From the NCBI RefSeq assembly GCF_022374875.2, contig NZ_CP092428.2:62001-126000 (forward strand): DNA of 64,000 bases. The letters run 5' to 3'. The number at the start of each line of letters is the position of its first letter. Within the stretch, counting starts at the first letter, position 1. Of the stretch, positions 12,211 through 56,540 are shown in pieces. This stretch comes from Mycolicibacterium rufum. Lineage in GTDB: Bacteria; Actinomycetota; Actinomycetes; Mycobacteriales; Mycobacteriaceae. The translations under genes were made by a program, and so were the position numbers. A model generated the notes under the pieces. It saw nothing but the letters and a program-made list of their open reading frames with translations, searched no databases and was not told the origin of the DNA.

Positions 12211-14484
12211 ATGACGACGTCGACGCCCGTGTCCGGCCCGAGCATTGAGCTCCGCATCGGAGGAATGACCTGCGCCTCCTGCGCCAACCGCATCGAACGC
12301 ACGCTCAACAAGATCGATGGCGTCGCGGCAACAGTCAACTACGCGACCGAGAAGGCCACCGTCACGGTGCCCGACGGATACGATCCCGCGCAGCTGCTCG
12401 CCGAGGTGGAAAATGCCGGCTACAGCGCCGCGCTACCCACACCGGAGAAGCCCGCCCCGCCCGGAGAGACAGGCGAGACCGACGACCCCGACATGGTGTC
12501 CCTGCGCCACCGGCTGACCGGTTCGGTGCTGCTATCGGTGCCGGTCATCGCGATGGCGATGATCCCCACGCTGCAATTCACCTACTGGCAGTGGGCGTCG
12601 CTGGTGTTGGCTGCGCCGGTGATCGTCTGGGCGGCCTGGCCGTTTCACCGCGCTGCCTGGGCCAACCTGCGGCACGCTACGGCGACGATGGACACGCTCA
12701 TCTCCCTGGGCACCTTGTCGGCCTTCCTGTGGTCGCTGTACGCGCTGTTCTTCGGGACCGCCGGCACCCCGGGAATGAAGCATCCGTTCGAACTGACACT
12801 CGCACCGTCTCACGGCGCCGCCAACATCTACCTCGAAGTCGCCGCTGGCGTCACAACATTCATCCTTGCGGGGCGCTATTTCGAGAAGCGGTCCAAACGG
12901 CAGGCCGGTGCGGCGCTGCGCGCCCTCCTAGAGATGGGCGCCAAGGAGGTATCCGTGCTGCGCGACGGCGCGGAAACGAAGATCGCCGTCGAGGACCTGA
13001 TAGTGGGCGACGAGTTCGTCGTGCGACCGGGAGAGAAGATCGCCACCGACGGGGTGGTGGTATCGGGGACATCGGCGGTCGATGTCTCGATGCTGACCGG
13101 CGAATCGGTCCCCGTGGAGGTCGGCCCAGGTGACACCGTGGTCGGTGCAACCGTCAACGCCGGTGGGCGACTGGTGGTACGCGCCACCCGCATCGGTTCC
13201 GACACCCAGTTGGCGCAGATGGCCCAGCTGGTGGAGAACGCCCAGACCGGCAAAGCCCAGGTCCAGCGGCTAGCCGATCGCATCTCCGGTGTCTTCGTGC
13301 CGATCGTCCTCGCGATCGCGGTGATCACACTCGGAGCGTGGTTGGGCGCGGGCTTCCCGGTCGCGGCCGCCTTCACCGCCGCCGTTGCCGTGCTGGTAAT
13401 CGCCTGCCCCTGCGCGCTCGGCTTGGCCACACCGACGGCACTGCTGGTGGGCACCGGTCGCGGCGCGCAAATGGGCGTTCTGATCAAGGGCCCGGAGGTG
13501 CTGGAGTCCACCCGCAAGGTCGACACCGTGGTGCTGGACAAGACCGGCACCGTCACCACCGGCAAGATGACCCTGGTCGACGTCATCACCGCCCCGGGAA
13601 CCGACCGCGGGAACCTGCTCCGGCTGGCAGGGGCGTTGGAGAACGCCTCAGAGCACCCGATCGCCCAAGCAATCGCCGTCGCTGCGACCGAAGAACTCGG
13701 GACGCTGCCCACCCCTGAGGATTTCGCCAATGTCGAAGGCAAGGGTGTGCAGGGCATCGTGGACGGCCACGCCGTGGTCGTGGGGCGCGAATCACTGCTC
13801 GCCGACTGGTCCCAACACCTCAGCCCAGAGTTGGCGCAGGCGAAAGACGCGGCCGAAGCGCGGGGCAAGACGGTGGTCGCCGTCGGCTGGGACGGTGAGG
13901 CTCGCGGCGTACTCGTCGTCGCGGATACCGTTGAACCCACCAGTGCGCAGGCAATCTCACAGATGCGCCAGATGGGCTTGACGCCGGTGCTGCTCACTGG
14001 GGACAACGAAGCCGTCGCCCGCCAGATCGCCGCCGAGGTCGGCATCGACACTGTGATCGCCGAGGTGATGCCGAAAGACAAAGTCGACGTTATTCTCCGG
14101 CTGCAATCCGAGGGCAAGACCGTGGCGATGGTCGGCGATGGCGTCAACGATGCGCCTGCCCTCGCCCAAGCCGACCTCGGCCTGGCTATGGGTACCGGAA
14201 CAGATGTCGCGATCGAAGCCTCCGACATCACCCTGGTACGCGGCGACCTGCGCAGCGCCGTCGACGCGATCCGGCTGTCCCGCAGGACACTATCGACGAT
14301 CAAGACGAACCTGTTCTGGGCGTTCGCCTACAACGTTGCCGCCATACCGGTTGCTGCACTGGGCATGCTCAACCCCATGCTCGCCGGCGCGGCCATGGCG
14401 TTCTCCAGCGTCTTCGTCATGGGCAACAGCCTGCGACTGCGCGGCTTCAAATCCACATCCACATCCTCTGCCCCTACCCACTGA
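12211..14484 (+). CDS. copA: Copper-exporting P1B-type ATPase (CPC motif)
   Basis: 757 residues. An N-terminal HMA domain holds GMTCASC (Cys21, Cys24); membrane helices follow, with the transport motif CPC at 399-401, phosphorylation Asp443 in DKTGT, the nucleotide-domain HP of SEHPIA, and [11 protein letters not shown] near the end. This is the P1B-1 pattern, so it should export Cu(I) across the plasma membrane, fed by CopZ. CsoR-like boxes upstream of copZ should control it with the rest of the operon; 41 bases separate it from the previous gene. Confidence 0.95.
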
Positions 14485-14509
14485 ACCCCTTCTGCATCAA
14501 GGAGAACTC

Positions 14510-14785
14510 ATGTCCGACAACAAGAACCTGACGTCGAGCTGCTGCTGCAGCGGCTCAACACAAGACCTCGACACGACGGTCATCAATCCGGGGACCACGA
14601 ACCTCCTCGACCCCGTAACGGACGAGACAACATGCCCGGTCATGCCCGGCACGCCGGTGAACAAGGCGGCCGCCGAAGCCGCGGGCCTATTCCGCGACTA
14701 CCGAGGCCGACGGTATTGGTTCTGCTGCAAAGGATGTGGACCGCGCTTCGACCGAGACCCCGACAAGTACGCCAGCGCGGCGTGA
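14510..14785 (+). CDS. YHS-like cysteine-rich metal-handling protein
   Basis: 91 residues with an AAGGAGAA ribosome site. The N-terminus carries a Cys run (SSCCCSG). The C-terminal half has TTCPVMPGTPVNK and YWFCCKGCGPRF with FDRDPDKYA, the pattern of YHS/TRASH-type metal-binding domains that accompany copper ATPases. It sits between copA and csoR in the same direction and probably binds copper in the cytosol (inferred). Confidence 0.8.
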   Translation: MSDNKNLTSSCCCSGSTQDLDTTVINPGTTNLLDPVTDETTCPVMPGTPVNKAAAEAAGLFRDYRGRRYWFCCKGCGPRFDRDPDKYASAA

Positions 14786-14834
14786 CTGACCTGCCGAACC
14801 CCGGCCTCCCAACCCACAGACCGAAGGAGTTGCC

Positions 14835-15164
14835 ATGACTCACGTCGACGACGCTGACCACTGCCCGGCATCGGGTTCAGTCCACCACGGCTACATCACC
14901 GATAAGGACAAGTACCTCAAACGCTTGAAACGTATTGAGGGCCAAGCCCGCGGCATCAGTCGGATGATCGAGGGGCAACGCTATTGCATCGACATCCTCA
15001 CCCAAGCTGACGCCCTGACCAAGGCCCTGCAAAGCGTCGCGCTGGCACTGCTCGACGACCATCTCCGACACTGCGTTCGAGACGCTGCTGCCGCCGGGGG
15101 ACCCGCTGCCGATGCCAAACTCACCGAAGCCTCCGATGCCATCGCCCGCCTCGTGCGGTCATGA
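14835..15164 (+). CDS. csoR: CsoR-type copper-sensing repressor
   Basis: 109 residues of the CsoR/RcnR helical family. The Cu(I) ligand set is visible: Cys51 in RYCID, then His76 and Cys80 in DDHLRHC, giving the C-x24-H-x3-C spacing of M. tuberculosis CsoR. A His/Cys-containing N-terminal tail precedes the core. It should bind the ATACCC/GGGTAT boxes at 10913-10960 without copper and release when Cu(I) binds. A GAAGGAG site precedes the ATG. Confidence 0.93.
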   Translation: MTHVDDADHCPASGSVHHGYITDKDKYLKRLKRIEGQARGISRMIEGQRYCIDILTQADALTKALQSVALALLDDHLRHCVRDAAAAGGPAADAKLTEASDAIARLVRS

Positions 15165-15248
15165 CCCGCAACGGCGGTGCACTGACGCCGCCTCGCTCCT
15201 ACGCACCCGCGCGAACGAACACGTGAGACTCCTCAAGGAGAGCACAAC

Positions 15249-17372
15249 ATGACCAGCCACGACGAGCACGCATTAGCGACATCCCACACCGGCGTTCACG
15301 CCGACCATGAGGGCCATGGCGAGCACGCCGTTCACGACTCCGGCCCCCACCACGACGACCATGCCGGCCATGGGGGTCATGCCGGGCACGGCGCCGATCA
15401 TGTGGCTCAGTTCCGGAAGCTCTTCTGGATCAACCTGATCATTGCCGTCCCGGTCATCGCGTTCTCGACCATGTTCGCGATGCTGCTCGGCTACGAAGTA
15501 CCCGACGTCCCCGGTGGCCGCTGGATCGCGCCACTGTTGGGCACGGTCATGTATGTCGTCGGGGGACGTCCCTTCCTTACCGGCGCCGTCAGCGAAATCC
15601 GTTCCCGAAAACCGGGAATGATGCTGCTCATCGGGCTGGCCATCACCGTCGCATTCTTCGCCTCCTGGGGCGCGAGCCTGGGCCTGCTCCACCACGAACT
15701 GGAGTTCTGGTGGGAACTGGCGCTGCTGATCGTCATCATGCTGCTCGGACACTGGGTCGAAATGCGCTCCTTGGCTCAGACCACCTCCGCACTGGACTCC
15801 CTGGCGGCCCTGCTTCCCGACGAGGCCGAAAAGGTCGACGGCGAACGAACCATCACCGTGTCGCCCGCCGACCTAAAAGTCGGTGATCTGGTAGTCGTCC
15901 GACCCGGCGGCAGCATCCCCGCCGACGGCAGAATCGTCGAGGGGCGAGCGGACATGGACGAGTCGATGGTGACCGGTGAATCGCGGCCGGTGGCCCGCGG
16001 CGTCGGAGATGCGGTGACGGCTGGAACTGTCGCCACCGATTCCGGGCTTCGGGTCGAAATCACCGCCACCGGTGACGACACCGCCCTGGCGGGAATCCAG
16101 CGCCTGGTTACCGAAGCGCAGAACTCGTCCTCGCGAGCCCAGCGCCTCGCCGACCGGGCGGCCGGGTGGCTGTTCTGGTTTGCCCTGGGGACTGCTGCCA
16201 TCACAGCCGTGGCGTGGTCGATTGTCGGAGACCCCGACGCCTCGGTCATAAGAGCCATTACCGTGCTCGTCATCGCCTGCCCCCATGCGTTGGGATTAGC
16301 GATACCACTTGTCGTCTCGATCGCCACCGAACGCGCTGCGCGGGGAGGCGTGCTGATCAAGGATCGCCTGGCCCTAGAAGGCATGCGCACCGTCGACGCC
16401 GTTCTCTTCGACAAAACCGGCACCCTGACAAAGGGCGAACCAACCGTGACCGCGATCGAGGTCCGCGGCGACCTCGACGACGACTCCGTGCTCGCCCTCG
16501 CGGCCGCCGCCGAAGCCGACAGTGAACACCCCCTGGCACGAGCGATCGTGAAAGCCGCCGACGAGCGGGGACTGACTGTGCCACGCGCGAAAGGCTTCTC
16601 GTCGTCTCCCGCCGTCGGCGTGACTGCCACGGTCGACGGGCACGAGATCCGCGTGGGCGGCCCCCGCCTGCTCGAAGAGATCGGCGCGCAAGAGGTTCAC
16701 GCGGCGACCTCGTGGCGCGACGAGGGCGCGATCATCCTGCACGTCATCCGAGACGGTGCTGTGGTCGGCGGCCTCCGCCTGGCCGACGAGATCCGCCCCG
16801 AGTCGCGCGACGCCGTCGATGCCTTGCACAAGCTCGGCGTCGAGGTGGTCATGATCACCGGTGACGCCGAAGCGGTCGCGCAGGCGGTAGGTCACGAACT
16901 CGGCATAGATCGGGTGTTCGCCGGAGTACGCCCGGAAGACAAGGCGTCGAAAGTTGCTGCGCTGCAACAGGAGGGCAAGAAGGTCGCGATGGTCGGCGAT
17001 GGCGTCAACGATGCCCCCGCGTTGGCACAGGCCGACGTCGGCATCGCGATCGGCGCCGGCACCGACGTCGCCATCGCCTCTGCCGGTGTGATCCTGGCAA
17101 GCTCCGACCCGCGCTCGGTGCTGTCGGTCATCGAACTGTCGCGAGCCAGCTACCGAAAAATGAAGCAGAACCTCTGGTGGGGCGCCGGATACAACCTCAT
17201 CGCAGTGCCGCTGGCTGCCGGTGTGCTCGCACCGATCGGATTCGTCTTACCGATGTCAGTCGGCGCCATCCTCATGTCACTGTCGACGATCGTCGTGGCG
17301 CTCAACGCGCAACTGTTGCGCCGCCTCGACCTGAGCCCTGAGGCCAGCACACGCGCGGTTCTCAACCGTTAG
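15249..17372 (+). CDS. copB: CPH-type P1B-3 copper ATPase with His-rich N-terminus
   Basis: 707 residues. The first 50 are strongly His-rich (repeats of HDEH, HAGHGGHAGHGADH) and replace an HMA domain. The membrane motif is CPH (344-346), phosphorylation Asp388 lies in DKTGT, and [14 protein letters not shown] is near the end. The CPH signature marks the P1B-3 group, usually assigned to copper efflux. AAGGAG site before the ATG; 84 bases after csoR, with no clear CsoR box of its own, so it may be read from the same transcript. Confidence 0.9.
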   Translation: MTSHDEHALATSHTGVHADHEGHGEHAVHDSGPHHDDHAGHGGHAGHGADHVAQFRKLFWINLIIAVPVIAFSTMFAMLLGYEVPDVPGGRWIAPLLGTVMYVVGGRPFLTGAVSEIRSRKPGMMLLIGLAITVAFFASWGASLGLLHHELEFWWELALLIVIMLLGHWVEMRSLAQTTSALDSLAALLPDEAEKVDGERTITVSPADLKVGDLVVVRPGGSIPADGRIVEGRADMDESMVTGESRPVARGVGDAVTAGTVATDSGLRVEITATGDDTALAGIQRLVTEAQNSSSRAQRLADRAAGWLFWFALGTAAITAVAWSIVGDPDASVIRAITVLVIACPHALGLAIPLVVSIATERAARGGVLIKDRLALEGMRTVDAVLFDKTGTLTKGEPTVTAIEVRGDLDDDSVLALAAAAEADSEHPLARAIVKAADERGLTVPRAKGFSSSPAVGVTATVDGHEIRVGGPRLLEEIGAQEVHAATSWRDEGAIILHVIRDGAVVGGLRLADEIRPESRDAVDALHKLGVEVVMITGDAEAVAQAVGHELGIDRVFAGVRPEDKASKVAALQQEGKKVAMVGDGVNDAPALAQADVGIAIGAGTDVAIASAGVILASSDPRSVLSVIELSRASYRKMKQNLWWGAGYNLIAVPLAAGVLAPIGFVLPMSVGAILMSLSTIVVALNAQLLRRLDLSPEASTRAVLNR

Positions 17373-32546: not shown

Positions 32547-32838
32547 ATTGTTCGAGCCTGCCACCGTTGATGAGCCGCCAACGTTCCGGGAGGGGGGCCG
32601 ATGACTGCCGATGATGTTGGCATTAAATCGATCCGGCACTGAACCGCTCAAGAGGATCGCGTGGACTCAGGGGCACGCAGCAGGTTAGGCCTCCTCTCCC
32701 GTGCCCATCCCAGGAGGCGCCGGCCGCAGCACCGGCCGGTCGTCGTCTTCAGATGCGTTGGAGGTTGCGCCAACCCGCACCAATCAACGAAATTCCCGCT
32801 TTCACCGTCGTTTGGCGATGAGGGCGAAAAATGCGCTA

Positions 32839-32858
32839 TCATCGCCGTATGGCGATGA
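32839..32858. promoter_or_regulatory. Metal-sensor operator, copy 2 (overlaps arsR-type start)
   Basis: TCATCGCC and GGCGATGA are inverted around GTAT; the CmtR-like ATG at 32849 lies inside. This suggests tight autorepression. Arms are identical to the site at 30014. Confidence 0.75.
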
Positions 32859-33247
32859 CAACCGACGATTGCGGCTCTGTGCGGCCGTCCACCAATCTGT
32901 CTCCGGCGGCGGCGCTGTTTCACGGTTTGGCGGATCCGACTCGACTGGCGATCCTGCAGCGGTTGGCTGACGGTGAAGCCCGAGTGGTGGATTTGACGGG
33001 ACTGCTCTCTATGGCGCAGTCCACAGTGTCGGCGCATCTGGCGTGCCTTCGTGACTGCGGGCTCGTAGTCGGGCGGCCCGAGGGCCGGCAGATGTTCTAC
33101 TCCCTGACCCGTCCCGAACTGCTCGATTTGTTGGCCTCAGCCGAGACACTTCTGGCCGCCACCGGCAACGCCGTCGCGCTGTGCCCCAACTACGGAACCC
33201 GCTCCCGCACGGGCGCGACGATCGATGCGGAGGAGACCGGCCGATGA
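32849..33247 (+). CDS. cmtR: CmtR-type ArsR-family Cd/Pb sensor
   Basis: 132 residues from the ATG at 32849 (32855 possible). The winged-helix core reads HGLADPTRLAILQRLADGE and STVSAHLACLRDCGLVVGR. Cys66 and Cys70 in CLRDC plus Cys112 in LCPNYG match the three-Cys site of mycobacterial CmtR (57, 61, 102), which senses Cd(II)/Pb(II). It is followed, with an ATGA overlap, by the metal ATPase gene. It should bind the two TCATCGCC palindromes. Confidence 0.88.
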   Translation: MAMTTDDCGSVRPSTNLSPAAALFHGLADPTRLAILQRLADGEARVVDLTGLLSMAQSTVSAHLACLRDCGLVVGRPEGRQMFYSLTRPELLDLLASAETLLAATGNAVALCPNYGTRSRTGATIDAEETGR

Positions 33248-35211
33248 GCGACGCCTGCGGCTGCGGCAATGACGAACCCCGCGGCGCCGACGAGGAGGAG
33301 CGTGAGCCCGAGCGGCTCTGGCAGATCAAGGAACTGCAGTTCGCCGCCATTTCAGGGGTGTTCCTGCTGGCAGCGGTGAACGCCGGGTTCCTCGACGCCG
33401 CGGAGCCGGTCGTCCTCACGCTGGAGGCGGTGGCGCTGCTGGCCGGCGCCTATACCTTCGTTCCGTTCACCCTCAAACGGCTGGCCAAGGGCAAAATCGG
33501 CGTTGGCACCCTGATGACCATCGCCGCCGTGGGCGCGGTGATCCTCGGCGAGGTGGGTGAGGCCGCCATGCTGGCCTTCCTGTTCTCCATCAGCGAGGGC
33601 CTAGAGGAGTACTCGCTGGCGCGCACTCGACGCGGACTGCGCGCGCTGTTGTCGCTGGTGCCCGACGAAGCGACCGTGCTGCGTGACGGCGGCGAAAAGA
33701 CCGTCGCGCCAGCGGAATTGCGGATCGGCGACCGGATGCTCGTCAAGCCCGGTGAGCGCGTCGCAACCGACGGCATCATCGGCCGAGGCCGCACCGCGCT
33801 GGATGTCTCCGCCATCACCGGTGAGTCGGTCCCCGTGGAAGCCGGGCCCGGTGACGAGGTGTTCGCCGGGTCGATCAACGGCACCGGCGCGCTCGAGGTG
33901 GAAGTCACCACCACCGCCGAGGACAACTCGCTGGCCCGCATCGTGCGCATCGTGGAAGCCGAGCAGTCCCGCAAGGGCGCCTCCCAACGCCTGGCTGACC
34001 GCATCGCCAAACCCCTGGTGCCCGGGGTCATGATCGTGGCGGCACTGATCGCGGTGATCGGCAGTTTGCTCGGGGACTCAGCCACCTGGATCGAACGTGC
34101 GCTGGTGGTGTTGGTCGCCGCCTCGCCGTGCGCCCTGGCGATCTCAGTGCCCGTCACCGTGGTGGCCGCCATCGGCGCCGCCAGCAAGCTCGGAGCCCTG
34201 GTCAAGGGCGGCGCCGCACTGGAAGGGCTGGGCAAGATACGCGGCGTCGCCTTGGACAAGACCGGCACCCTCACCGCAAACCGGCCCGCAGTCATCGACG
34301 TGGCCACCACCAACGGCGCCACCCGCGAAGAGGTGCTGGATCTAGCTGCGGCCCTGGGAGCGCGCAGCGAGCACCCGCTGGCCGCGGCGATCCTCGCCGC
34401 CGTCGACGATGTCCTCCCAGCCACCGACGTGGAGGCGGTGACCGGTGCCGGGCTCACCGGGCGTCGCGACGGGCATACCATCCGCCTCGGCCGCCCCGGC
34501 TGGCTCGACCCGGGCCCGCTCGCCGATGGGGTGGCGCGCATGCAGCACGCCGGGGCCACCGCCGTCCTCGTCGAAGACAACGGCCAGGTAATCGGCGCCA
34601 TCGCCGTGCGCGACGAGCTGCGACCCGAGGCCGCCGAGGTTGTCGCCCGACTGCGCCGCGACGGCTATCACGTGGCAATGCTCACCGGCGACAACCAGGC
34701 CACCGCAGCCGCATTGGCCCGCGACGTCGGGATCGAGGCCGTGCACGCCGAGCTGCGCCCCGAAGGCAAAGCGCGACTGATCGAACAGCTACGTGCCCAG
34801 CGCCCCACGGCGATGGTCGGCGACGGCGTCAACGACGCTCCAGCGCTGGCCACCGCCGACCTGGGTATCGCAATGGGCGCGATGGGCACCGACGTGGCCA
34901 TCGAAACCGCCGACGTGGCGTTGATGGGCGAAGACCTGCGCCACCTGCCTCAGACGTTCACCCACGCGCGGCGGGCGCGGCGGATCATGCTGCAAAACGT
35001 CGGCCTGTCCCTGGGCCTAATCCTCGCGTTGTTGCCGCTGGCACTGTTCGGCATCCTCGGACTGGCCGCCGTCGTGCTGGTCCACGAACTCGCCGAGATT
35101 GTGGTCATCGCCAACGGTGTTTGCGCGGGGCGCACCAAGCCACTGGCCGCCGCGCCGGTCGATGCGGCAGCCAGCCACAACCGCGCGGCGCCAGTGGGCA
35201 CGCCGTCGTGA
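33244..35211 (+). CDS. SPC-motif P1B-type heavy-metal ATPase
   Basis: 655 residues from the ATG at 33244 (overlap with the sensor). A short Cys tail, DACGCGNDE, replaces an HMA domain. The membrane motif is SPC (294-296), the phosphorylated Asp338 is in DKTGTL, and the hinge is [16 protein letters not shown]. The pattern, and the CmtR-type partner, resemble CtpG-like cadmium/lead efflux pumps. It is a clear paralogue of the ATPase at 42405 (shared ERLWQ-KELQFAA start and matching order of motifs). Heads an operon with lspA and cadD. Confidence 0.9.
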   Translation: MSDACGCGNDEPRGADEEEREPERLWQIKELQFAAISGVFLLAAVNAGFLDAAEPVVLTLEAVALLAGAYTFVPFTLKRLAKGKIGVGTLMTIAAVGAVILGEVGEAAMLAFLFSISEGLEEYSLARTRRGLRALLSLVPDEATVLRDGGEKTVAPAELRIGDRMLVKPGERVATDGIIGRGRTALDVSAITGESVPVEAGPGDEVFAGSINGTGALEVEVTTTAEDNSLARIVRIVEAEQSRKGASQRLADRIAKPLVPGVMIVAALIAVIGSLLGDSATWIERALVVLVAASPCALAISVPVTVVAAIGAASKLGALVKGGAALEGLGKIRGVALDKTGTLTANRPAVIDVATTNGATREEVLDLAAALGARSEHPLAAAILAAVDDVLPATDVEAVTGAGLTGRRDGHTIRLGRPGWLDPGPLADGVARMQHAGATAVLVEDNGQVIGAIAVRDELRPEAAEVVARLRRDGYHVAMLTGDNQATAAALARDVGIEAVHAELRPEGKARLIEQLRAQRPTAMVGDGVNDAPALATADLGIAMGAMGTDVAIETADVALMGEDLRHLPQTFTHARRARRIMLQNVGLSLGLILALLPLALFGILGLAAVVLVHELAEIVVIANGVCAGRTKPLAAAPVDAAASHNRAAPVGTPS

Positions 35212-42027: not shown

Positions 42028-42412
42028 TATGACTGAGCCGGTGGATACCTGCGATCTCCTCTGTTTGGACCTGCCCCACGCGGAGGCCATCCGGGCCACG
42101 GTGCCCGACAGCGCCATCATCCAAGCCGCCGCCGCTGCGGCGCGCGGCCTGAGCGACGAGACCCGGCTGTCAATCGCGGCCGCCCTGGCGGCCGGTGACG
42201 AGTTGTGCGTTTGCGACATGGCCTGGGTGGTCGGACTGCCGCAGGGATTGGTGTCTCATCATCTGCGCCAACTCAAGAACGCGGCGCTGGTGTCCTCACG
42301 GCGCCAAGGCAAGTTGGTCATGTACCAGCTGACCGAACGCGGGCGCCAGCTGACCGACTCGGTACTGACCGGTGCAGGCGCGCGTGCAGGGAAGGAACCC
42401 GACCGTGTCTGA
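42023..42412 (+). CDS. CadC/SmtB-type ArsR-family metal sensor
   Basis: 129 residues. N-terminal Cys10 and Cys14 (DTCDLLC) and the ELCVCD motif (Cys62, Cys64) form the alpha3N site of CadC-type Cd/Pb/Zn sensors. The recognition helix region is LPQGLVSHHLRQLKNAALV. Its stop overlaps the GTG of the ATPase gene. A different sensor class from the CmtR-like one at 32849, so the two ATPases are regulated separately. Confidence 0.88.
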   Translation: MNMTEPVDTCDLLCLDLPHAEAIRATVPDSAIIQAAAAAARGLSDETRLSIAAALAAGDELCVCDMAWVVGLPQGLVSHHLRQLKNAALVSSRRQGKLVMYQLTERGRQLTDSVLTGAGARAGKEPDRV

Positions 42413-44537
42413 TGCATGCTGCGGGCCAAGCAACGACGTCGAACCCGATGCGGGTCCCGAAAGGCTCTGGCAGGTACGGGAATTGCAGTTCGCTGCGCTG
42501 GCTGCGGTCCTGTTGACTGTGGGCTGGGTCGTGGGGCGGGTCGGTTACGAGGGTGTCGCGGTCGGCGTCGAGCTGGCTGCGGTAGCTGCTGGCGCGATCA
42601 CGTTCGTGCCCGATGAGGTCCGCAATCTGCGGCATGGCCGTATCGGGGTCGGCACGTTGATGACCATCGCCGCGATCGGCGCGGTGGTTCTGGGTCAGTT
42701 CGCTGAGGCCGCCCTGCTGGGCATCTTGTTCTCGATTGCCGAAGGTTTGGAGCACTACGCCGTCAGCCGCACCCGCCGCGGGCTGCGCTCCCTGCTGTCG
42801 CTGGTGCCGCCGAAGGCCTCGGTGCTGCGGGATGGCACCGAAATCACCGTGGCTCCTGGTGATCTCGTCGTCGGTGACGTCATGGTGATCCGGCCCGGTG
42901 AACGGGCCGCCACCGATGGCACGATCCGATCCGGTCAGACGAGCCTGGACTTGTCGGCGATCACCGGCGAGTCGGTGCCCGTCGAAGCCGGACCGGGCAG
43001 CGACGTGTTCGCCGGTGCCATCAACGGCGGCGGAGCGATCGAGGTCGAGGTCAACGCCTTGGCCGCTGACAGTTCCTTGGCGCGGATCGTGCACATCGTC
43101 GAGCAAGCCCAGGAACGCAGGGGTGCCGGCCAACGACTGGCGGATCGGATCGCCCGTCCGCTGGTGCCGGCGATCATGGCGTTGGCCGCGGGCATCGCCG
43201 CGGTGGGCGCGGTGTTGGGTGACCCGATGCTGTGGCTGGAACGGGCATTGGTGGTGCTCGTGGCAGCCTCACCGTGCGCGCTGGCGATCGCCGTCCCGCT
43301 GACCGTGGTCGCGGCCATCGGAGCCGCCAGCCGCCACGGCGCCCTGATCAAGGGCGGCGCCGCGGTCGAAGAACTTGGCCGCATCAAGGTCGTCGCTCTG
43401 GATAAGACGGGCACGCTCACCCGCAACCAGCCCCGCGTCATCGAGGTGGTCACCATCGACGACCTGAGCGGGGAGGACGCCTTGCGGTGGGCGGCGGGCC
43501 TGGAAGCGCGCAGCGAACACCCACTGGCCCAAGCGATCCTGACTGCCGCCGGGAAAGCACCGGCCGCTGGCGACGTGACCGCAGTGCCCGGCCACGGCCT
43601 GCATGGTGACCTCGACGGCCACCGGCTGCGCCTCGGGAAACCCTCGTGGGTAGCCCCTGGACAACTCGCCGCCGACGTGGAGCGGTTGCAGGCCGCCGGC
43701 TCCACCGTGGTGGTGCTCGCCCGCGATGACGTGCCGGTTGCCGCCATCGCGGTGCGCGATGAACTTCGCCCCGAAGCCGCCGAGGCCGTCAGCTTGTTGA
43801 AGCGACTGGGGATCACGGTGGCGATGCTCACCGGCGACAACATCCGCACCGCCCACGCGGTGGCCACCGAAGCCGGCATCACCACCGTGCACTCCGAGCT
43901 GCTTCCCGAGGACAAGGCATCTCTCCTGCCGGCCCTCGCGCAGGGCCGACCCATCGCCATGGTCGGCGACGGCATCAACGACGCCCCCGCACTGGCCACC
44001 GCCGACATCGGCATCGCCATGGGCGCCATGGGCACCGACGTCGCCATCGAAACCGCCGACGTCGCCCTAATGGGCGAGGACCTTCGCCACCTACCCCAGG
44101 TGCTGGCCCACTCGCGGCGCGCCCGCCGGATCATGGTGCAGAACATCGCGTTCTCGCTGGCCATCATCGCGGTCCTCATTCCGCTGGCCGCGTTCGGCGT
44201 CCTGGGCCTAGCCACGGTGGTCCTGATTCACGAAGCCGCCGAAGTGTTCGTCATCCTCAACGCCATCCGCGCCGCCCGCATCACCGCCCTACCCGGCGTG
44301 ACAGCGGCGTCACCGCGGTCAGCGCCTCACACCCTCGACATCGGCCCAGCACCCACCCTCGGCGACCCCTGCTGCGGTCCCCAACCGGCCGCGCAGACCC
44401 CAGTCGCCAGCATCACCCTTCCCCTGGTCGCGTCGGCTCCTGCGCAGAGCGACCACGGGTGCGATTGCTGCGCCCCCACCGGATCTGCACCGGACGTCAA
44501 CGACACGTCCGCACCTGCCCGAGTCGACCACCAATAG
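42405..44537 (+). CDS. SPC-motif P1B-type heavy-metal ATPase with Cys-rich ends
   Basis: 710 residues from a GTG at 42405. Motifs: SPC (289-291), DKTGTL with Asp333, MVGDGINDAPALATAD. A Cys-pair CCGP is present at both ends: SDACCGPSND at the N-terminus and GDPCCGPQ in a C-terminal extension of about 75 residues that also has HGCDCCAP. These could bind metal and control pumping. It is paralogous to the pump at 33244, which lacks the C-terminal extension. Likely substrate: Cd, Pb or Zn. Confidence 0.9.
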   Translation: MSDACCGPSNDVEPDAGPERLWQVRELQFAALAAVLLTVGWVVGRVGYEGVAVGVELAAVAAGAITFVPDEVRNLRHGRIGVGTLMTIAAIGAVVLGQFAEAALLGILFSIAEGLEHYAVSRTRRGLRSLLSLVPPKASVLRDGTEITVAPGDLVVGDVMVIRPGERAATDGTIRSGQTSLDLSAITGESVPVEAGPGSDVFAGAINGGGAIEVEVNALAADSSLARIVHIVEQAQERRGAGQRLADRIARPLVPAIMALAAGIAAVGAVLGDPMLWLERALVVLVAASPCALAIAVPLTVVAAIGAASRHGALIKGGAAVEELGRIKVVALDKTGTLTRNQPRVIEVVTIDDLSGEDALRWAAGLEARSEHPLAQAILTAAGKAPAAGDVTAVPGHGLHGDLDGHRLRLGKPSWVAPGQLAADVERLQAAGSTVVVLARDDVPVAAIAVRDELRPEAAEAVSLLKRLGITVAMLTGDNIRTAHAVATEAGITTVHSELLPEDKASLLPALAQGRPIAMVGDGINDAPALATADIGIAMGAMGTDVAIETADVALMGEDLRHLPQVLAHSRRARRIMVQNIAFSLAIIAVLIPLAAFGVLGLATVVLIHEAAEVFVILNAIRAARITALPGVTAASPRSAPHTLDIGPAPTLGDPCCGPQPAAQTPVASITLPLVASAPAQSDHGCDCCAPTGSAPDVNDTSAPARVDHQ

Positions 44538-47431: not shown

Positions 47432-47719
47432 TTACTCATAGGCAAGGAACGCGCTGACTAGCGACAAGCGCGTCGGGGACAGAATGACCCCTAGAGAACT
47501 GACGTCGGCGCCGTTTCGCGTGAAGATGGTCACCACGTCTTCGACGAGACAGATCCCGCGCTGCCCGTCGTACTTGATTTCTGTGGCCCAGTCTCCGCGG
47601 CTGGGTGGAGGGCCCAATGTTGCCAGCATTGGCTCGGGCGAGTGCCCGCGCTGACCGAGCCGTCTGCTGGTTTCCACATCGATGACGCTACGCACCTGGC
47701 GGCAGGCCCTACTCCCCAC
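47432..47719 (-). pseudogene. N-terminal fragment of ATP-dependent DNA ligase
   Basis: The frame reads EPMLATLGPPPSRGDWATEI then KYDGQRGICLVE and FTRNGADVS. This is the nucleotidyltransferase start of LigC/LigD-type ligases, with the AMP-accepting Lys in EIKYDGQR. The frame ends after about 95 residues, before the remaining motifs, so it cannot be an active ligase. Confidence 0.7.
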
Positions 47720-47730
47720 GGTGACAGCCG

Positions 47731-48255
47731 CTATGGCCGGCTATAGCGACCCTGGCGCATCAGCGGGCTGCCAGCGGGGCTGAGGAATGACTGTTTGAGG
47801 TCGCGTATCGACCAACCCAGATAGTGCGACAGCGGCACCAGAGCGAGCAGACTCAGGCTGTCGTCCGGCGCGGCGGCCACGGGAACACCGCCAACCCGTC
47901 GAAGCGTCCGGTACCCGCGTTCGGCGGCGGTGAGGTCGTAGCCGTCAGCGAGGTCGGCGGATCGCCAGGGTTGCTCGAGCAGGGGGAGGTCAAGGTCCTC
48001 TCGGATGTCGTCGGCGAAATGCCCGACGAGGTAGTGCTCCAAGACGTCTACCTCGGCGACGAACAGAAGACCACGCTCGCTGGGTGCGTCTTCGTCGTCT
48101 TGTGTGAGCTCGAACCGCTCCAGTCCCCTTCGCCGGATGAAATACCCAGTAGACGGCTGCTTTTGGGAACGTAGGTGGACGTCTCCATCATCGGCAACCA
48201 CGGGATGAAAGCCGGCTGCACGTACCCATCCCAGACAGTCTTCTCCGAGGATCAC
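47731..48255 (-). CDS. Hypothetical protein, possible Imm61-like immunity protein
   Basis: 174 residues. Visible blocks are GWVRAAGFHPVVADDGDVHL, a run FVAEVDVLEHYLVGHFADDIR, and near the end LALVPLSHYLGWSIRDLKQS. The length and order of these blocks recall Imm61-type immunity proteins, the group that includes the M. tuberculosis TNT toxin antitoxin, but I cannot test this. No toxin gene is adjacent, so it would be an orphan. Confidence 0.45.
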   Translation of the reverse strand: MILGEDCLGWVRAAGFHPVVADDGDVHLRSQKQPSTGYFIRRRGLERFELTQDDEDAPSERGLLFVAEVDVLEHYLVGHFADDIREDLDLPLLEQPWRSADLADGYDLTAAERGYRTLRRVGGVPVAAAPDDSLSLLALVPLSHYLGWSIRDLKQSFLSPAGSPLMRQGRYSRP

Positions 48256-48610: not shown

Positions 48611-49768
48611 CTAGGAGGGGTCTACCAGGGGCCCCGAGATCTGATGCCGGTGAAAGCCATCACGCCAATCCTCCCGCTGGAGTGCCAGAAGGTAGCCCAC
48701 CGGGTTGGCAAGCGCTTGTTCGGTTCGTTCCGATCTGGCGTCGTAAACCAGCCGTCCAGCTGCGAGAGCAAGCCCAGCGCTGGATACGATGACCTGCGAG
48801 AGCGCTCCGTCGGGCAGGATACTGTTAAGTCCGCCCGCGACCAGCAAGGGCGCGGCCGTATTGAGCGATAGCGCACGCCAGACTGCTCCCACGCCGATCT
48901 TTTGGAGCGATCTTTCCAACGAGCGTAGGGCGGGTGCGACTGACCGTTCGTACTCATTTTGAAGTTGCAGAACAACAGCCCGCGCGTCACTAGGACTGCT
49001 AAGGACCTCCGGCAATGCACTGGAGGTCACGATCCGCTCAATAAAATCTTGAAACGTCGTCAAAGCCAGTCTGTTTCGAGCACGGAAATCGGCTACCTGA
49101 CGAATCGTCATGGCTTTGAGGTCACCCGGAAGTACCGCTTGAATCGAGACCAAGGCGAGTCCCGCAACCCCGGTCGATTCATGCAACTGCACATCGCCCA
49201 CGAAAGTTCCGGTGGTTAGGACCTCTCGTACCGTCTCGGGCCCCCAGTGAGCAGAGCCTGGGAAGGGCCCGTGGTCAACCCCTGTCAGGCTGAACCCTAA
49301 ACGCGAGGCAACGATCTCTGCTAGGCGGCTGTTGTATATCTGAGCTATGCGTGCCGACGTGCGAAGGAAGGGATCGAACGGTGGCTCAGTTTCGTACTTT
49401 AGATAGCCAAGGTTGGCATCGACTAAGCACCCCGCCAGATCTTCGCTGAACCAATGCTCATCTAATGTCGCACGGAGGCCAGTCCTTGGCCTCCATTGAA
49501 CGATTTCGATTGCAGCACGGATCTCTTCGGGCCACCTATGTACGGCCTCTATGATGGGCGCAGCTGCATTCGCGTGGTCTTCCACGCGATATTTCAATAC
49601 GGACAGCATCTGTCGGTCTGCCAACTCCCGCACTGCCGTTTGCCGTTGATAGATTCGGTTTTCGTCCCACACAGCAGGTACAGCAAGAGCCATTTGATCG
49701 AAATACAGTGCGACCGCTTTGTGTCTGTCACTCCACACATCGGAGTTACTGAGCAAACCGATGGGCAC
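48611..49768 (-). CDS. Hypothetical protein, 385 residues (DUF6236-like?)
   Basis: Soluble protein without signal. The start MPIGLLSNSDVWSDRHKAVALYFDQMAL and several Arg/Glu-rich helices in the middle (VADFRARNRLALTTFQDFIE, LQNEYERSVAPALRSLERS) resemble DUF6236-type proteins. Two weakly hydrophobic segments lie near the end (about 300-345). GC is lower than for the metal genes, suggesting separate origin. Function unknown; such proteins occur in mobile regions. Confidence 0.6.
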   Translation of the reverse strand: MPIGLLSNSDVWSDRHKAVALYFDQMALAVPAVWDENRIYQRQTAVRELADRQMLSVLKYRVEDHANAAAPIIEAVHRWPEEIRAAIEIVQWRPRTGLRATLDEHWFSEDLAGCLVDANLGYLKYETEPPFDPFLRTSARIAQIYNSRLAEIVASRLGFSLTGVDHGPFPGSAHWGPETVREVLTTGTFVGDVQLHESTGVAGLALVSIQAVLPGDLKAMTIRQVADFRARNRLALTTFQDFIERIVTSSALPEVLSSPSDARAVVLQLQNEYERSVAPALRSLERSLQKIGVGAVWRALSLNTAAPLLVAGGLNSILPDGALSQVIVSSAGLALAAGRLVYDARSERTEQALANPVGYLLALQREDWRDGFHRHQISGPLVDPS

Positions 49769-50136: not shown

Positions 50137-50206
50137 GGGTCTGCCGCACGAATAGGTGACATCTGAGTTGGCTTGCCCAGCGCGGGCAGGCTGGAAGGAT
50201 GTCCCC

Positions 50207-50515
50207 ATGGCAAGGCCCTATCCCCGTGAGTTCCGCGACGACGTCGTGCGCGTGGCCCGCAACCGCGATGACGGGGTGACGATCGAGCAGATCGCCACCG
50301 ATTTCGGGGTGCACCCGATGACGCTGCAGAAATGGCTCCGTCAGGCCGACATCGACGAGGGTACCAAGCCCGGCAAAGGTACCGGCGAGTCCGCTGAACT
50401 GCGGGAACTGCGCCGCCGAAACCGTCTGCTGGAACAGGAAAACGAGGTCCTGCGCCGGGCGGCTGCGTATCTATCGCAGGCCAACCTTCCGGGAAAAGGG
50501 TCTACCCGCTCGTGA
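50207..50515 (+). CDS. IS3-family OrfA
   Basis: 102 residues from the ATG at 50207 (GGAAGGA site). An HTH domain (PREFRDDVVRVARNRDD, IEQIATDFGVHPMTLQKWLR) binds the IS ends, followed by a leucine-zipper-like region ELRELRRRNRLLEQENEVLRR. The heptamer GGGAAAA (50491-50497) is in the correct phase for a -1 shift into OrfB, which would read on as GKRVYPLVKELAADG. Confidence 0.92.
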   Translation: MARPYPREFRDDVVRVARNRDDGVTIEQIATDFGVHPMTLQKWLRQADIDEGTKPGKGTGESAELRELRRRNRLLEQENEVLRRAAAYLSQANLPGKGSTRS

Positions 50516-51369
50516 AAGAGCTCGCCGCTGACGGGATCCCCGTCGCGGTGACGTGCCGGGTCCTCAAGCTCGCCCGCCAGCCCTACTACCGCTGGCTGGC
50601 CAACCCCATCACCGACGCCGAGTACGTCGAGGCCTATCGCGCTAATGCCCTGTTCGACGCCCACCGCGACGATCCGGAGTTCGGGTACCGCTACCTGGTC
50701 GAGGAGGCCCGCGACGCCGGCGAGACGATGGCTGAGCGCACCGCCTGGCGCATTTGCTCACAGAATCGGTTGTGGAGCGTGTTCGGTAAGAAGCGCGGCA
50801 AGAACGGCAAGGTCGGCCCGCCGGTGCATGATGATCTTGTCGAACGCGACTTCACCGCCGATGGTCCAAATCAGTTGTGGCTCAGCGATATCACTGAGCA
50901 TCGCGCCGACGAAGGCAAGCTCTATCTCTGCGCCATCAAGGACGTGTTCTCCAACCGCATTGTCGGATACTCGATCGACTCCCGAATGAAGTCCCGGCTG
51001 GCCACCACAGCGCTCAATAGTGCGGTGGCACGCCGCGGTGATGTCGCCGGTTGCATTCTGCACAGCGACCGCGGCAGCCAATTTCGAAGCCGGAAGTTCG
51101 TGCACGCCTTGGGCCGTTACGAGATGGTCGGATCGATGGGCCGCGTCGGGGCGGCCGGCGACAATGCGGCCATGGAGAGCTTCTTTAGCCTGCTGCAGAA
51201 GAACGTGCTCGATCGCCGCCGCTGGCGCACCCGAGAAGAGCTGCGGATCGCGATCGTCACCTGGATCGAACGGACCTACCACCGCCGGCGGCGCCAAGCC
51301 GGACTCGGGCGGTTGACCCCGATCGAGTTCGAAGCCATCATGACCACACCGGCCAGTCAGGCCGCGTGA
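50512..51369 (+). CDS. IS3-family OrfB transposase (DDE)
   Basis: 285 residues. An HTH_21-type region (DAHRDDPEFGYRYLVEEAR) precedes the integrase core with catalytic residues: Asp in LWLSDITEH, Asp in LHSDRGSQF and Glu in DNAAMESFFSLLQ. It ends in IERTYHRRRRQAGLGRLTP. The GTG at 50512 overlaps the OrfA stop, but the functional product is probably the OrfAB fusion. Confidence 0.93.
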   Translation: MKELAADGIPVAVTCRVLKLARQPYYRWLANPITDAEYVEAYRANALFDAHRDDPEFGYRYLVEEARDAGETMAERTAWRICSQNRLWSVFGKKRGKNGKVGPPVHDDLVERDFTADGPNQLWLSDITEHRADEGKLYLCAIKDVFSNRIVGYSIDSRMKSRLATTALNSAVARRGDVAGCILHSDRGSQFRSRKFVHALGRYEMVGSMGRVGAAGDNAAMESFFSLLQKNVLDRRRWRTREELRIAIVTWIERTYHRRRRQAGLGRLTPIEFEAIMTTPASQAA

Positions 51370-51605
51370 CCGAAACTGTCACCTGATCGTGCAGCAGACC
51401 CCTCTTATGCAACGGTATTCGGCTATTGATAACGCCGCCCTACTCATAGTATTGCCAGGCTTGTTCGGGATGTGTCGGCACATGCAATGCAACGACCTTG
51501 AGCCATTCGCGCTGATAGGCCGCTTCTGCCCCGGCGGCGACGCCACGCTACGAAAATCGACCGCCTCTGTAGGTGGCCGGCAGAGCATCAGCGAGAATCG
51601 ATGCC

Positions 51606-54600
51606 GTGCCCGCCAAGCCTGCATCGTCACCACGAATGCCTATTGGTCCCTACTGGTACGAGAACCTCGGCGAGGACGACTTTCAAAAGCTATGTCAGGT
51701 GATCGTCGCCGGCAAATACGACAAGGTCACCTGCTACCCGCTGGGTCAAAAAGACGGCGGCAGGGACATCACGCGCAGATCCGGGTCAGGAGGCGTGATC
51801 TACCAAGTCAAGTGGTCCAAGGATTCGGTGAAGAACCCCATCACCTGGCTCGAGAACGCGATAGCGGGGGAATCCGAGAACATCAAGGCCCTTGTCGAGG
51901 CTGGTGCAACCCAGTACGTGCTGATGACGTCCCTATCGGGCACGGGAGCGGCTGCAACCGATCCCGACGGCCGCGGTGCCGGCACGATCAATAAGCTTGA
52001 GACGGCCCTTGCCCGATATGCGAAGGACTTCAAGCTGGCGTCCATGGAGTGCTGGTGGCGCGATGACATCGATGCGCTTGTGCCCGCATTGCCGAAGTCG
52101 TCGCTCTGGCGGTTTCAAAAGATGCTCGCCGGTCCCGAGGCAATGCGGTTCCTGCTCGACGCTGATCATGAGGAGTCCAGGCAGGCCCGGCTAGCCACGT
52201 TGGTGAGGAAGGCGGTCCAGGCGCAATGGTGGCGCGACGAGAAAGTCAAATTCAAACAAGCTGAACTAGACAAGGACGATCTGGAAGACCTGTTCGTCGA
52301 CGTCAAGACGAACGCGAATCCGACCCACAGAGTTGGTCATCCCGAATCTAATGAGGTCCGTCCAGAGTCGGTCGGTGCGGCGCGGTACCTCTTGTCGTCC
52401 AAGAGCCCCTTCACGCTGGTACGGGGCGAGCCTGGTCAAGGCAAATCCACACTCGGACAGTATCTATCGCAAATCTATCGGTCCGAGTTCGTGCCTGACG
52501 AGCCGGGAACCACCATCAAGCGACCGAGCTTGAGGCCGACATCCTCGCGCGTGCCACTCAGAATCGACTTGCGTGATTACGGGGCGTGGCTGGACGGAGA
52601 CGATCCGTTCGCCGAGGCTCAGTCCGCGCGCGGACCGTCGACCCGCCAGAGACGGATGGGTGGAGTCGAGAGATTCCTCGCTGCCTTTCTGTCAGCGCTC
52701 ACCGAATCCGACGGCGTCGACCTGGAGACGGTAAGTGACCTGCTCGATCGTTTCCCGGTCTTCATCGTGTTCGATGGCTTGGACGAGGTTGCCCAACGTG
52801 ACACACGCCAACGCGTTGTCGACGAGATCGAAAAGTTCATCAGCCGATGGAGGGGCGGCAGTGTCGTTCCGCCCAAGATCATCGTCACGAGTCGCCCGAA
52901 CGTGTCGGGTCTCGCGGAGCCTAATGCCCAACTGTTCGAGCCGATTACGCTGCTTAAGCTCGACCAAGACCTGAGACTGGCCTACCTGGACAAATGGTGT
53001 GCCGCCCGTGGCATCGTCAGTCAATCCCGACGCGACCTTGTCCACAGCTTCGATGCGCGCACCGCTGAGCCCCATATCGCGCAACTCGCAGAGAACCCAA
53101 TGCAGTTGACGATTCTTCTGTATCTGCTTCATCTGCAAGGACAATCAGTCCCGGACAAGCGGACAGCGCTCTACGACGAATACATGAAGACGTTCCTCAA
53201 CCGCGAGGCCGAGAAGAGCGCCTCCGTCCGCGACAACCGGGAGAACCTCGAGGAAGTGACCGCCTTCCTCGGCTGGCATCTGCAGGGCCTAGCGGAACAG
53301 CAGGGAAGCAACGGTCGGCTCAGCACCACCGATCTGAAAACGGAGATTTTTCGGTACCTCACGGCTGCTCAGAAGGACACCGCTCTGGTCGAATCCTTAT
53401 TCACCGATGTGACCGACAGGGTTTGGGCCCTATCGAGTAAGGCTCAGGGAACGTTCGAATTCGATGTACAACCGGTGCGCGAGTTCTTCGCTGCGAAGTA
53501 TCTGTCGCGATATGCGTCCGCGGACAAGGCGACTATGCTGAACGCCCTGATTCGACGGCCTTTCTGGTTCAACACCAGCCGCTTCTTCGCCGGCTTCGCG
53601 CATGCCAACGAGGTCGGAGGATTGGTCGACGGGCTGACCGAGGAAATTAGCGAGGAGAGGCACCCAAAATCCGCACGCGTTGCGACATGGACGCTGCTGT
53701 CAGACGGTGTCTTCTCATCGAAGACAACCGCACAACGACGCGCCGTCGACCTGCTCTGCGATGACCTCGGAACACGATTGCTCCGGCTGAAGAACCAGTC
53801 CTCCGAGCCTCTCCCCGCACTTCCCGGCGATCGCGGATCGCTCATGCTGTGGGAACGGCTCCTAGCGGCGGCAGCTCAAGCACCGTCCACCGCCATCTCG
53901 CGTGAACGCGTTTGGCTGGCGTCTCGGCTCGATGTGGACGCCGCTGCGCTGACGCAATGGTGGCTCGACCAAGCCCGACCGAAGCTCGGCAGTCCGGACG
54001 AGACGGCGTGGTTGCGCTTGGGCGCCTCGCTCACGCTGGGCCGCGTCCTCGGGCCCGACGACGTTCAGAAACTCGCGCTCAACGACGTCACCTCAATCCG
54101 CGCTGCAATCGAGACGGCGATCTCGCCCCCGTCGAACTCGGCGATCGAGCAGTCAATGGTGCGCGCAGTCCTTTCGGGACATGGTTCGGATCTAGCTGTC
54201 GAACACACCGGTTTGGTGCCCGATCTCGTAAATGCCCTCGCTCCACGTGAGTTCATACATCTCGCGGTTCCCGAGGACCGTATGGTGTTCGAGTCCAAGA
54301 CTGCCCATTGCCAGGAACTGATGCAGGCATCATCAAGGCGGGAAGCCTTTCGTCGTCTCAAGGCGATCGATCCGTCCTTCGATAAGGTTCAGACCGCGAT
54401 GAACAAGGCGCGTCGCTCGCCCAACACGGTCGCCCCGTGGAGCGATGCTGCCGAGGCCTTGCGAGACGTCTATGGTCCCTCCTGGTTATCAGCTGACATC
54501 GCGATCATCGGGGCGGCGATCAACCCCAGCACGCGACGCGACCTAGGTCCGATGAATCCGAGCCGCTCGGCCTTCGGCCCAAACATCGATTACGGACGCT

Positions 54601-55253
54601 TGGTGAACGACGTACGGGTCAATCGCGGTCAGACGCAGTGGTGGCTCGACCAGCGCGAAAATCTAACGCTCCCCGATCGCTCAGTGTGGGCGTACGCGCT
54701 CGTCGCCGGCGCGACCCCAGCCGTAGTCGAGGCGTGCCTGCCAATGCTTGCCGACGACATCGAGGCGCTCGAACCAGACCGCGCAGCGGTCCTGCTGAAT
54801 AGCTCCAGTCGTTTGGGTTTGGCCCGAGTTAGCCGCCGACTGCCGAAAGAGCTGATCACGACCGCACTAGAGCTATCTCTACCCTTGGCGCTGCTCATCG
54901 CCCACCACGTTGACATGGACCACGCGACATCAGATTTGGCGACCACGGTCACTCCCGAAGTTGCCTTGGAACTGGCGCAGTATGGACCTGCCGCCTGGCC
55001 CGCGTTGTACGTCGCGGGCCAGGGCCTCTATCAACAGCGTTCGGCAGATTGGCTTGCGGCACTTAAGGCTCACGGCCCAGATGCAGCAGGCGGTGTGGCA
55101 CTAGGGCCGCTCCCCCAAGACATAAGTGCAGAGATTCTGCAATGTCCGGCCAGCTTCCCGTTGCAGTGGGTCGAGGTCGCAGAGACGTCTCGGTCTCAAA
55201 GTCACGTCGAACCCCCGCTGTTGACGCTAGCCGGCACTTGGTTTGCGGACTAG
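51606..55253 (+). CDS. Mrr-type nuclease / NACHT ATPase, defence-like
   Basis: About 1,215 residues (GTG 51606; GTG 51573 or ATG 51636 also possible). The N-terminal 150 residues resemble an Mrr-type PD-(D/E)xK nuclease: NLGEDDFQKLCQ, KDGGRDI and VIYQVKWSK supply Asp and the Q-x-K motif. A NACHT STAND ATPase follows: Walker A GEPGQGKST (about 274), Walker B VFIVFDGLDEV (about 385), a sensor Arg in VTSRPN and FDVQPVREFFAAKYL of the winged-helix end. About 600 C-terminal residues of helical repeats may be the sensor. Bacterial NACHT and Avs proteins of this layout are antiphage systems. It stands alone just right of the IS. Confidence 0.85.
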   Translation: MPAKPASSPRMPIGPYWYENLGEDDFQKLCQVIVAGKYDKVTCYPLGQKDGGRDITRRSGSGGVIYQVKWSKDSVKNPITWLENAIAGESENIKALVEAGATQYVLMTSLSGTGAAATDPDGRGAGTINKLETALARYAKDFKLASMECWWRDDIDALVPALPKSSLWRFQKMLAGPEAMRFLLDADHEESRQARLATLVRKAVQAQWWRDEKVKFKQAELDKDDLEDLFVDVKTNANPTHRVGHPESNEVRPESVGAARYLLSSKSPFTLVRGEPGQGKSTLGQYLSQIYRSEFVPDEPGTTIKRPSLRPTSSRVPLRIDLRDYGAWLDGDDPFAEAQSARGPSTRQRRMGGVERFLAAFLSALTESDGVDLETVSDLLDRFPVFIVFDGLDEVAQRDTRQRVVDEIEKFISRWRGGSVVPPKIIVTSRPNVSGLAEPNAQLFEPITLLKLDQDLRLAYLDKWCAARGIVSQSRRDLVHSFDARTAEPHIAQLAENPMQLTILLYLLHLQGQSVPDKRTALYDEYMKTFLNREAEKSASVRDNRENLEEVTAFLGWHLQGLAEQQGSNGRLSTTDLKTEIFRYLTAAQKDTALVESLFTDVTDRVWALSSKAQGTFEFDVQPVREFFAAKYLSRYASADKATMLNALIRRPFWFNTSRFFAGFAHANEVGGLVDGLTEEISEERHPKSARVATWTLLSDGVFSSKTTAQRRAVDLLCDDLGTRLLRLKNQSSEPLPALPGDRGSLMLWERLLAAAAQAPSTAISRERVWLASRLDVDAAALTQWWLDQARPKLGSPDETAWLRLGASLTLGRVLGPDDVQKLALNDVTSIRAAIETAISPPSNSAIEQSMVRAVLSGHGSDLAVEHTGLVPDLVNALAPREFIHLAVPEDRMVFESKTAHCQELMQASSRREAFRRLKAIDPSFDKVQTAMNKARRSPNTVAPWSDAAEALRDVYGPSWLSADIAIIGAAINPSTRRDLGPMNPSRSAFGPNIDYGRLVNDVRVNRGQTQWWLDQRENLTLPDRSVWAYALVAGATPAVVEACLPMLADDIEALEPDRAAVLLNSSSRLGLARVSRRLPKELITTALELSLPLALLIAHHVDMDHATSDLATTVTPEVALELAQYGPAAWPALYVAGQGLYQQRSADWLAALKAHGPDAAGGVALGPLPQDISAEILQCPASFPLQWVEVAETSRSQSHVEPPLLTLAGTWFAD

Positions 55254-55457: not shown

Positions 55458-56540
55458 TCAGATCCCGGCGGCTGCCAGCCATTCGCTGTAGAAGACCGCG
55501 ATTCCGAGTCCGCAGGAGATGGCAGCGATTAGCCAGAACCGAATGGTCAGCGCGGTTTCCGGCCAGTCCATGAGTTCGAAGTGGTGGTGCAGCGGGGAGT
55601 TCCGGAACACGCGTCGGCCGGTAGTACGGAATGAGATGACTTGGATTACAACCGAGCCGACTTCGGCGACGAACAGCGCGCCCAGGATGATGGCCAGAAT
55701 TTCGGTGCGGCTGGTCACCGACAGTCCGGCTATGACGCCGCCCAGGGCCAAAGAACCGGTGTCACCCATGATGATCTTGGCGGGTGCTGCGTTCCACCAC
55801 AGGAAGCCGATGCAGGCTCCGGCGGTCGCGGCGGCGACGAGGGCCAGGTCGAGTGGGTCTCGGACGTGGTAGCACCCAGGCGTGGCAGCCTCAGCGCATT
55901 GGTTTCGGAACTGCCAGAAGGTGATGATGACGTAGGCGGCGCTCACCAAGGCCATGGCGCCCGCAGCCAGCCCGTCGAGTCCGTCAGTGAGGTTCACCGC
56001 GTTCGACCAGGCAGAAACCACCATGATGCAGAACAGCACGAACACCACCGGCGGCAGTGCGAATTCTGCGATGTCGCGGACGTAGGACAGCGCAGGGCTG
56101 CCAGGGGTTAACCCATCCGCGTTGCGGAACTGCAGTGCGAGAACGCCGAAGAGGATGGCCGCGACGAGCTGGCCGGCACTTTTGGCTCGCTTGTTCAAGC
56201 CGAGGTTCCGGCCTCGCCGCACTTTGAGGTAATCGTCGGTGAAACCGACAGCACCTAGTGCGGTTGCTAGTCCAAGGACGAGTAGTCCTGATGTCGTCGG
56301 GCCCTCACCGCCGAGCACGAGTTCGTCGAAAAGGGTGCTGGTCAGGTAGCTGACCCAGATCGCAGCGAGGATCGCCAGCCCGCCCATCGTGGGCGTTCCC
56401 TGCTTGCGTTGATGGCTTTTCGGGGCCTCGGCGCGGATGGGTTGTCCCAACCCAAGCCGAGAGAATGTCCGGATCAACACCGGAGTCAGCAGAACGGCGA
56501 CCACCAGGGCCATACCGGCGGCGACAAGTATCGATTTCAT
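55458..56540 (-). CDS. mraY: MraY, phospho-N-acetylmuramoyl-pentapeptide transferase
   Basis: 360 residues, about ten membrane helices. Family motifs are intact: [48 protein letters not shown] and SPLHHHFEL. It forms lipid I on the inner membrane face. It is not in a division/murein gene cluster: neighbours are a NACHT protein and a cyclase-like protein. It could be a second mraY, possibly giving resistance to MraY inhibitors (inference), or the only copy moved out of place; the window cannot decide. Confidence 0.93.

Follow-up and report, generated by a model that had tools for sequence, protein, structure and literature searches.

A large gene on a probable mycobacterial plasmid, probably laid out as animal immune sensors are, with a DNA-cutting front, a switch and a helical sensor

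The locus and its product

The window analysed here is a 64,000-nucleotide stretch of the Mycolicibacterium rufum genome (positions 62001-126000 of contig C2, NZ_CP092428.2). It contains a large gene, present once in this genome, that joins a nuclease domain, a NACHT module and a helical C-terminus in a single protein. The open frame (51573-55253, +) could encode up to 1226 amino acids. A GTG start at 51606 agrees with the closest relatives among the matches listed, P0001 (96% identity) and P0002 (85%), and a start near the ATG at 51636 (1205 amino acids) is found in the majority of the remaining relatives inspected. Residue numbers refer to the 1205-residue form.

51606..55253 (+): single-gene Mrr-NACHT protein, 1215 amino acids and a stop codon; the ATG at 51636 is an alternative start
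51636..52145 (+): roughly residues 1-170, an N-terminal nuclease domain of the PD-(D/E)xK (Mrr) type, with D40, D44, Q57, K59 and E79 conserved
52179..53615 (+): residues 182-660, a NACHT module that includes helical and winged-helix parts, with Walker A GEPGQGKS (residues 264-271) and Walker B VFDGLDE (residues 378-384)
53616..55250 (+): all-helical C-terminal solenoid, a putative sensor, residues 661-1205, little conserved

At the N-terminus, a conserved Asp ... Gln-x-Lys motif lies in what the predicted model shows as an alpha-beta-beta-beta-alpha-beta core, as in Mrr-type nucleases. Motif conservation, model topology and an Mrr_cat match in relative L030 also agree with the PD-(D/E)XK effectors of clade 6 bacterial NACHT (bNACHT) proteins. 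A loosened nuclease pattern, so loose that chance fits are possible, matches 96 of 101 locus rows, L113-L124 being set aside, and the five misfits all have an HNH-type N-terminus (L101 is a copy of L013). An earlier labelling had called 13 effectors 'other'. Nine of these loci are cut before the N-terminus (L114-L120, L122, L123) and two are pattern misses (L062, P0033); only L014 and L015 have truly different N-termini, both still PD-(D/E)xK-like by eye.

The central module behaves as a NACHT-type STAND nucleoside triphosphatase (NTPase) in fold comparison, its model matching the animal NLRs NLRC4, NOD2 and NLRP3 at 11-20% identity among the matches listed. PF24883 scores above its cut-off and PF05729 below its own. 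Both Walker motifs are invariant across 115 aligned rows; the alignment of homologues kept 114 of the 120 listed, those over 1170 in length. Animal NLRs carry CARD or PYD domains and leucine-rich repeats, where the window protein has a nuclease and no such repeats.

No Pfam model matched the C-terminal region, in a Pfam copy that holds NCH2 (PF22727) and may lack the NCH1 model. The best PDB match to the model of the C-terminal half, among the matches listed, is CAND1 (E 9.4e-3, template-modelling score 0.25), and none of the 50 listed matches is an Avs or NCH-type fold, although the region may be kin to these. The protein as a whole had no NCBIfam match; a PDB sequence search with it reached E 0.0095 at best, to repeat designs, and PDB searches with the two profiles gave 0 matches. 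In a comparison with close relatives (17 rows), the nuclease is 77% identical, the NACHT domain 78% and residues 501-660 89%; the linker (171-245) stands at 67% and the three C-terminal parts at 65%, 72% and 57%. By these values the putative sensor evolves faster than the effector and switch.

A sequence-only reading of this DNA had proposed one protein in effector-switch-sensor order, had named a missing N-terminal PD-(D/E)xK match as grounds for abandoning the idea, and had recognised no known sensor in the C-terminal repeats. The intact Mrr-type motif, the NACHT module and the models of both halves bear out that order, to which effector exchange (below) adds, with sensing itself assigned putatively. 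The nuclease motif is present, and the repeats still have no confident match.

A multi-phylum family with exchanged effectors

The same reading treated the gene as a single-gene candidate, which the analysis supports, with the correction that the protein belongs to a large, multi-phylum family. Those members that have a name in the databases are called 'NACHT domain-containing protein', 'large ATP-binding protein' or 'hypothetical protein'. Of the 7999 candidates scored, 1111 pass E ≤ 1e-3, and identity in the 120 listed goes down to about 40%, mostly near full length. Scanning a single genome for each species gave 144 relatives, and 80 of them were retrieved. They come from Actinomycetota, Pseudomonadota, Cyanobacteriota, Chloroflexota, Acidobacteriota and others, including some metagenome bins that are possibly misassigned.

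Within the genus the distribution is patchy. Matches at E ≤ 1e-30 occur in 15 of 198 genomes (own included; three match only from query residue 149-189 onward), in a search that scores few candidates per genome, so that some copies may escape. The C-terminal half occurs in 12 of 397 genomes of the order, again counting its own. Conservation in all relatives would have marked a housekeeping gene, a possibility the earlier reading had raised; a gene this mobile, and this rare in a search that may miss copies, was rejected as one. Relatives lie on 30 plasmid records and also on chromosome-sized contigs (e.g. L018, L075). In a tree of 100 NACHT cores, built by a quick method with several weak forks, the rows of the window's genus have neighbours from Arthrobacter (support of the fork 90), Nonomuraea (93) and Agromyces (93); L013, an HNH row, groups with Rhodococcus and Arthrobacter rows that come from plasmids (99). 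This tree uses seven of the 120 listed proteins, had 18 duplicate rows removed, and omits L001, L054, L063, L070, L088, L089, L103, L110, L113 and L121.

Several actinobacterial relatives (L013/L101, L125, L126 and L127) share a homologous NACHT module and C-terminal region with the window protein, but their nuclease is of the HNH and not the Mrr type. HNH_2 scores above its cut-off in L013 and below it in L125 and L126, and L127 was called from its annotation; the L013/L101 core is that of a Mycobacterium lentiflavum plasmid. When the profile of the HNH group (four rows, one short) was compared with that of the window's group, the C-terminal regions paired at 98.8% (507 columns) and the N-termini at 0.1%. 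Against a distant multi-phylum group the C-terminal region pairs at 99.8% over 529 columns, and against a group of shorter proteins named 'large ATP-binding protein' at 100% over 401 columns; with L014 alone it reaches only 49.6%. All of these are uncalibrated pairwise hhalign scores with no database background. Matching C-terminal regions behind differing N-termini indicate that one switch-plus-sensor unit has been joined to at least two unrelated nucleases, which is what one would expect of NLR-like proteins.

Genomic setting

C2 (264,010 bases) accompanies contig C1 (5,750,445 bases) and bears the genome's only TrwC relaxase match. Its size and this relaxase make it most likely a mobilisable plasmid. 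Upstream of the gene lies an insertion sequence (IS):

50137..51401 (+): IS3-family element with open reading frames 50156-50515 and 50512-51369 and a 3-bp CTC target duplication

The element had been noticed within 210 bases of the gene and indeed ends 204 bp upstream. It is not part of the system: three similar copies (86%) lie in the organism's own chromosome and others in congeners, so it is an independent insertion and a neighbour only.

Eleven of the 30 matched plasmid records were opened around the relatives, and annotated defence genes appear in the displayed flanks of five: a DNA methyltransferase and helicases (L099), AbiEii/AbiEi (L100), Abi and type I restriction-modification (L125), SIR2 (L126) and Abi (L128). 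Relaxase or transfer genes lie near L128 and L129. Among 126 neighbour genes from 47 other loci, we counted five phage integrase, three resolvase, three TrwC relaxase and two type I specificity domain matches. These genes were hand-picked from 210 (short, very long and plasmid-record ones mostly omitted; 47 of 54 dereplicated loci), and the counts are suggestive only, because they have no background control. A partner gene common to close relatives was ruled out, as the 8 kb flanks of L018 and L019 match the window in this gene alone (DNA similarity only).

Two Rhodococcus plasmids (L098 and L099) share a dnaE - LysR pair behind the NACHT gene, with recombinase genes after it, and differ on the gene's other side; the site may mark an integration hot spot. 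In the IMG/VR contig L016, labelled viral, the relative adjoins a type I restriction HsdR gene. Elsewhere in the M. rufum genome, five other weak NACHT-model matches (L131-L135) lie on the chromosome-sized C1, one of them above cut-off and with its neighbours in frame.

The remaining window genes are diverse. Immunity protein 61 (PF15598, E 1.1e-24) at 47731-48255 (-) lies next to a gene at 48611-49768 with a below-cut-off DUF6236 match, and a short open reading frame at 47432-47719 (-) resembles by eye an ATP-dependent DNA ligase fragment. A second mraY, for the peptidoglycan precursor transferase (TIGR00445, 280 bits), occupies 55458-56540 (-), the other copy being at C1:5311682-5312665; an extra plasmid copy of this essential cell-wall enzyme seems unusual. 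Four heavy-metal P-type ATPases (by best NCBIfam match two copper-type and two cadmium-type) and an ArsR/SmtB regulator (12211-17372, 32831-35211, 42372-44537) give the contig the look of a metal-resistance plasmid.

Interpretation and alternatives

The observed domain order, the intact catalytic and ATPase motifs, the modelled NLR-like switch fold, the patchy, mobile distribution and the exchange of effectors together fit a single-gene bNACHT immune protein with a deoxyribonuclease (DNase) effector. We put the probability that this is a stand-alone bacterial NLR-related (bNACHT/STAND) immune protein at roughly 0.8; that it is an anti-invader alarm protein of known kind is very likely. At rest, the protein would be kept off by ADP and its own C-terminal solenoid. 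An invading phage or a rival mobile element would supply a protein, or some other product, that docks on the solenoid directly or via a host factor, upon which the NACHT module would swap nucleotide and oligomerise. The oligomer would unite the Mrr-type nuclease domains to cut DNA, and infection would end through destruction of phage DNA, host DNA or both. Oligomerisation, DNA cutting and the trigger, as well as anti-phage activity with phage and not plasmid as the target, are what we infer here.

By architecture, the nearest tested precedent appears to be bNACHT25 and bNACHT32, clade 6 proteins that, according to PMC12169576, respond to phage as single genes with an N-terminal PD-(D/E)XK DNase, a central NACHT and a C-terminal helical domain; their defence depends on the nuclease, and DNA is degraded upon infection. 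The likeness is one of architecture. Both carry an NCH1 C-terminal domain; here no Pfam model, in a copy that may lack NCH1, matched the C-terminus. The Avs3 and Avs4 (AVAST) proteins likewise combine nuclease, STAND ATPase and C-terminal sensor, the last of a type that binds terminase or portal. According to PMC12931631, Avs1-4 work through nucleases once phage proteins are sensed. Avs3 and Avs4 (8dgc, E 3.7e-8; 8dgf, E 1.2e-7) are among the Foldseek matches of the modelled N-terminal half, but they are longer (1534-2028 residues in the chains listed). The family is named in no title or abstract opening of the short literature lists obtained, and NLR, Avs and STAND are absent from the main text of an actinobacterial defence survey (PMC10482375).

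Several observations weigh against an immune role. The window protein's own N-terminus has no Pfam match, its PADLOC match is weak (E 0.0079), and the DGLDE form of Walker B occurs in 91 of 110 locus proteins, hence is variable in the wider family. The window neighbours (Imm61, DUF6236-like, MraY copy) form no recognised defence island; no clear defence gene is seen around the relatives in six of the eleven opened plasmid records (L098, L101, L102, L127, L129 and L130, a remote relative); and PADLOC finds at most three genes per family among the 126 neighbours. None of 50,697 phage records matched. Two contigs labelled viral hold relatives, one label (L016) being doubtful because a Micromonospora genome (L021) has that NACHT core as well.

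The absence of phage matches also suits an anti-plasmid role, in which the protein would serve its plasmid by killing or limiting rival plasmids or conjugation rather than phages. The relaxase-bearing contig, the 30 plasmid records and the transfer genes near L128 and L129 point the same way. We nevertheless consider this unlikely: relatives also sit on chromosome-sized contigs, and the known PD-(D/E)XK bNACHT proteins respond to phage (PMC12169576).

Mrr enzymes are modification-dependent, and the Mrr-type domain could belong to a Type IV-like restriction enzyme that reads modified foreign DNA directly together with the C-terminal region, powered by the NTPase. This is quite improbable, given that the NTPase is a NACHT/STAND module like that of NLRC4 and that this C-terminal region is found behind an unrelated HNH domain too, which a swappable effector explains better. 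Least probable of all is a role outside defence, as a plasmid-addiction toxin or a NACHT-type regulator, which would suit a single gene on a plasmid-like contig and the mostly regulatory focus of bacterial STAND studies (PMC7159879) but not the lack, at DNA level, of a shared partner gene around L018 and L019 or the retained catalytic residues.

The immune reading adds a mycobacterium, through what is probably a mobile plasmid, to the bacteria with a DNase-armed NLR architecture. With homologous switches and sensors joined to either an Mrr-type or an HNH nuclease, the family provides natural effector swaps with which to probe the sensor's target apart from the mode of killing. More tentatively, and with considerable doubt, the C-terminal ~545 residues may represent an undescribed sensor family, spread across many phyla with exchanged effectors (Mrr versus HNH), that recognises one conserved, widespread invader component and serves plasmids in mobile-element conflicts. 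If so, this region would be a further broad solution to pattern recognition besides the Avs and NCH1/SNaCT sensors.
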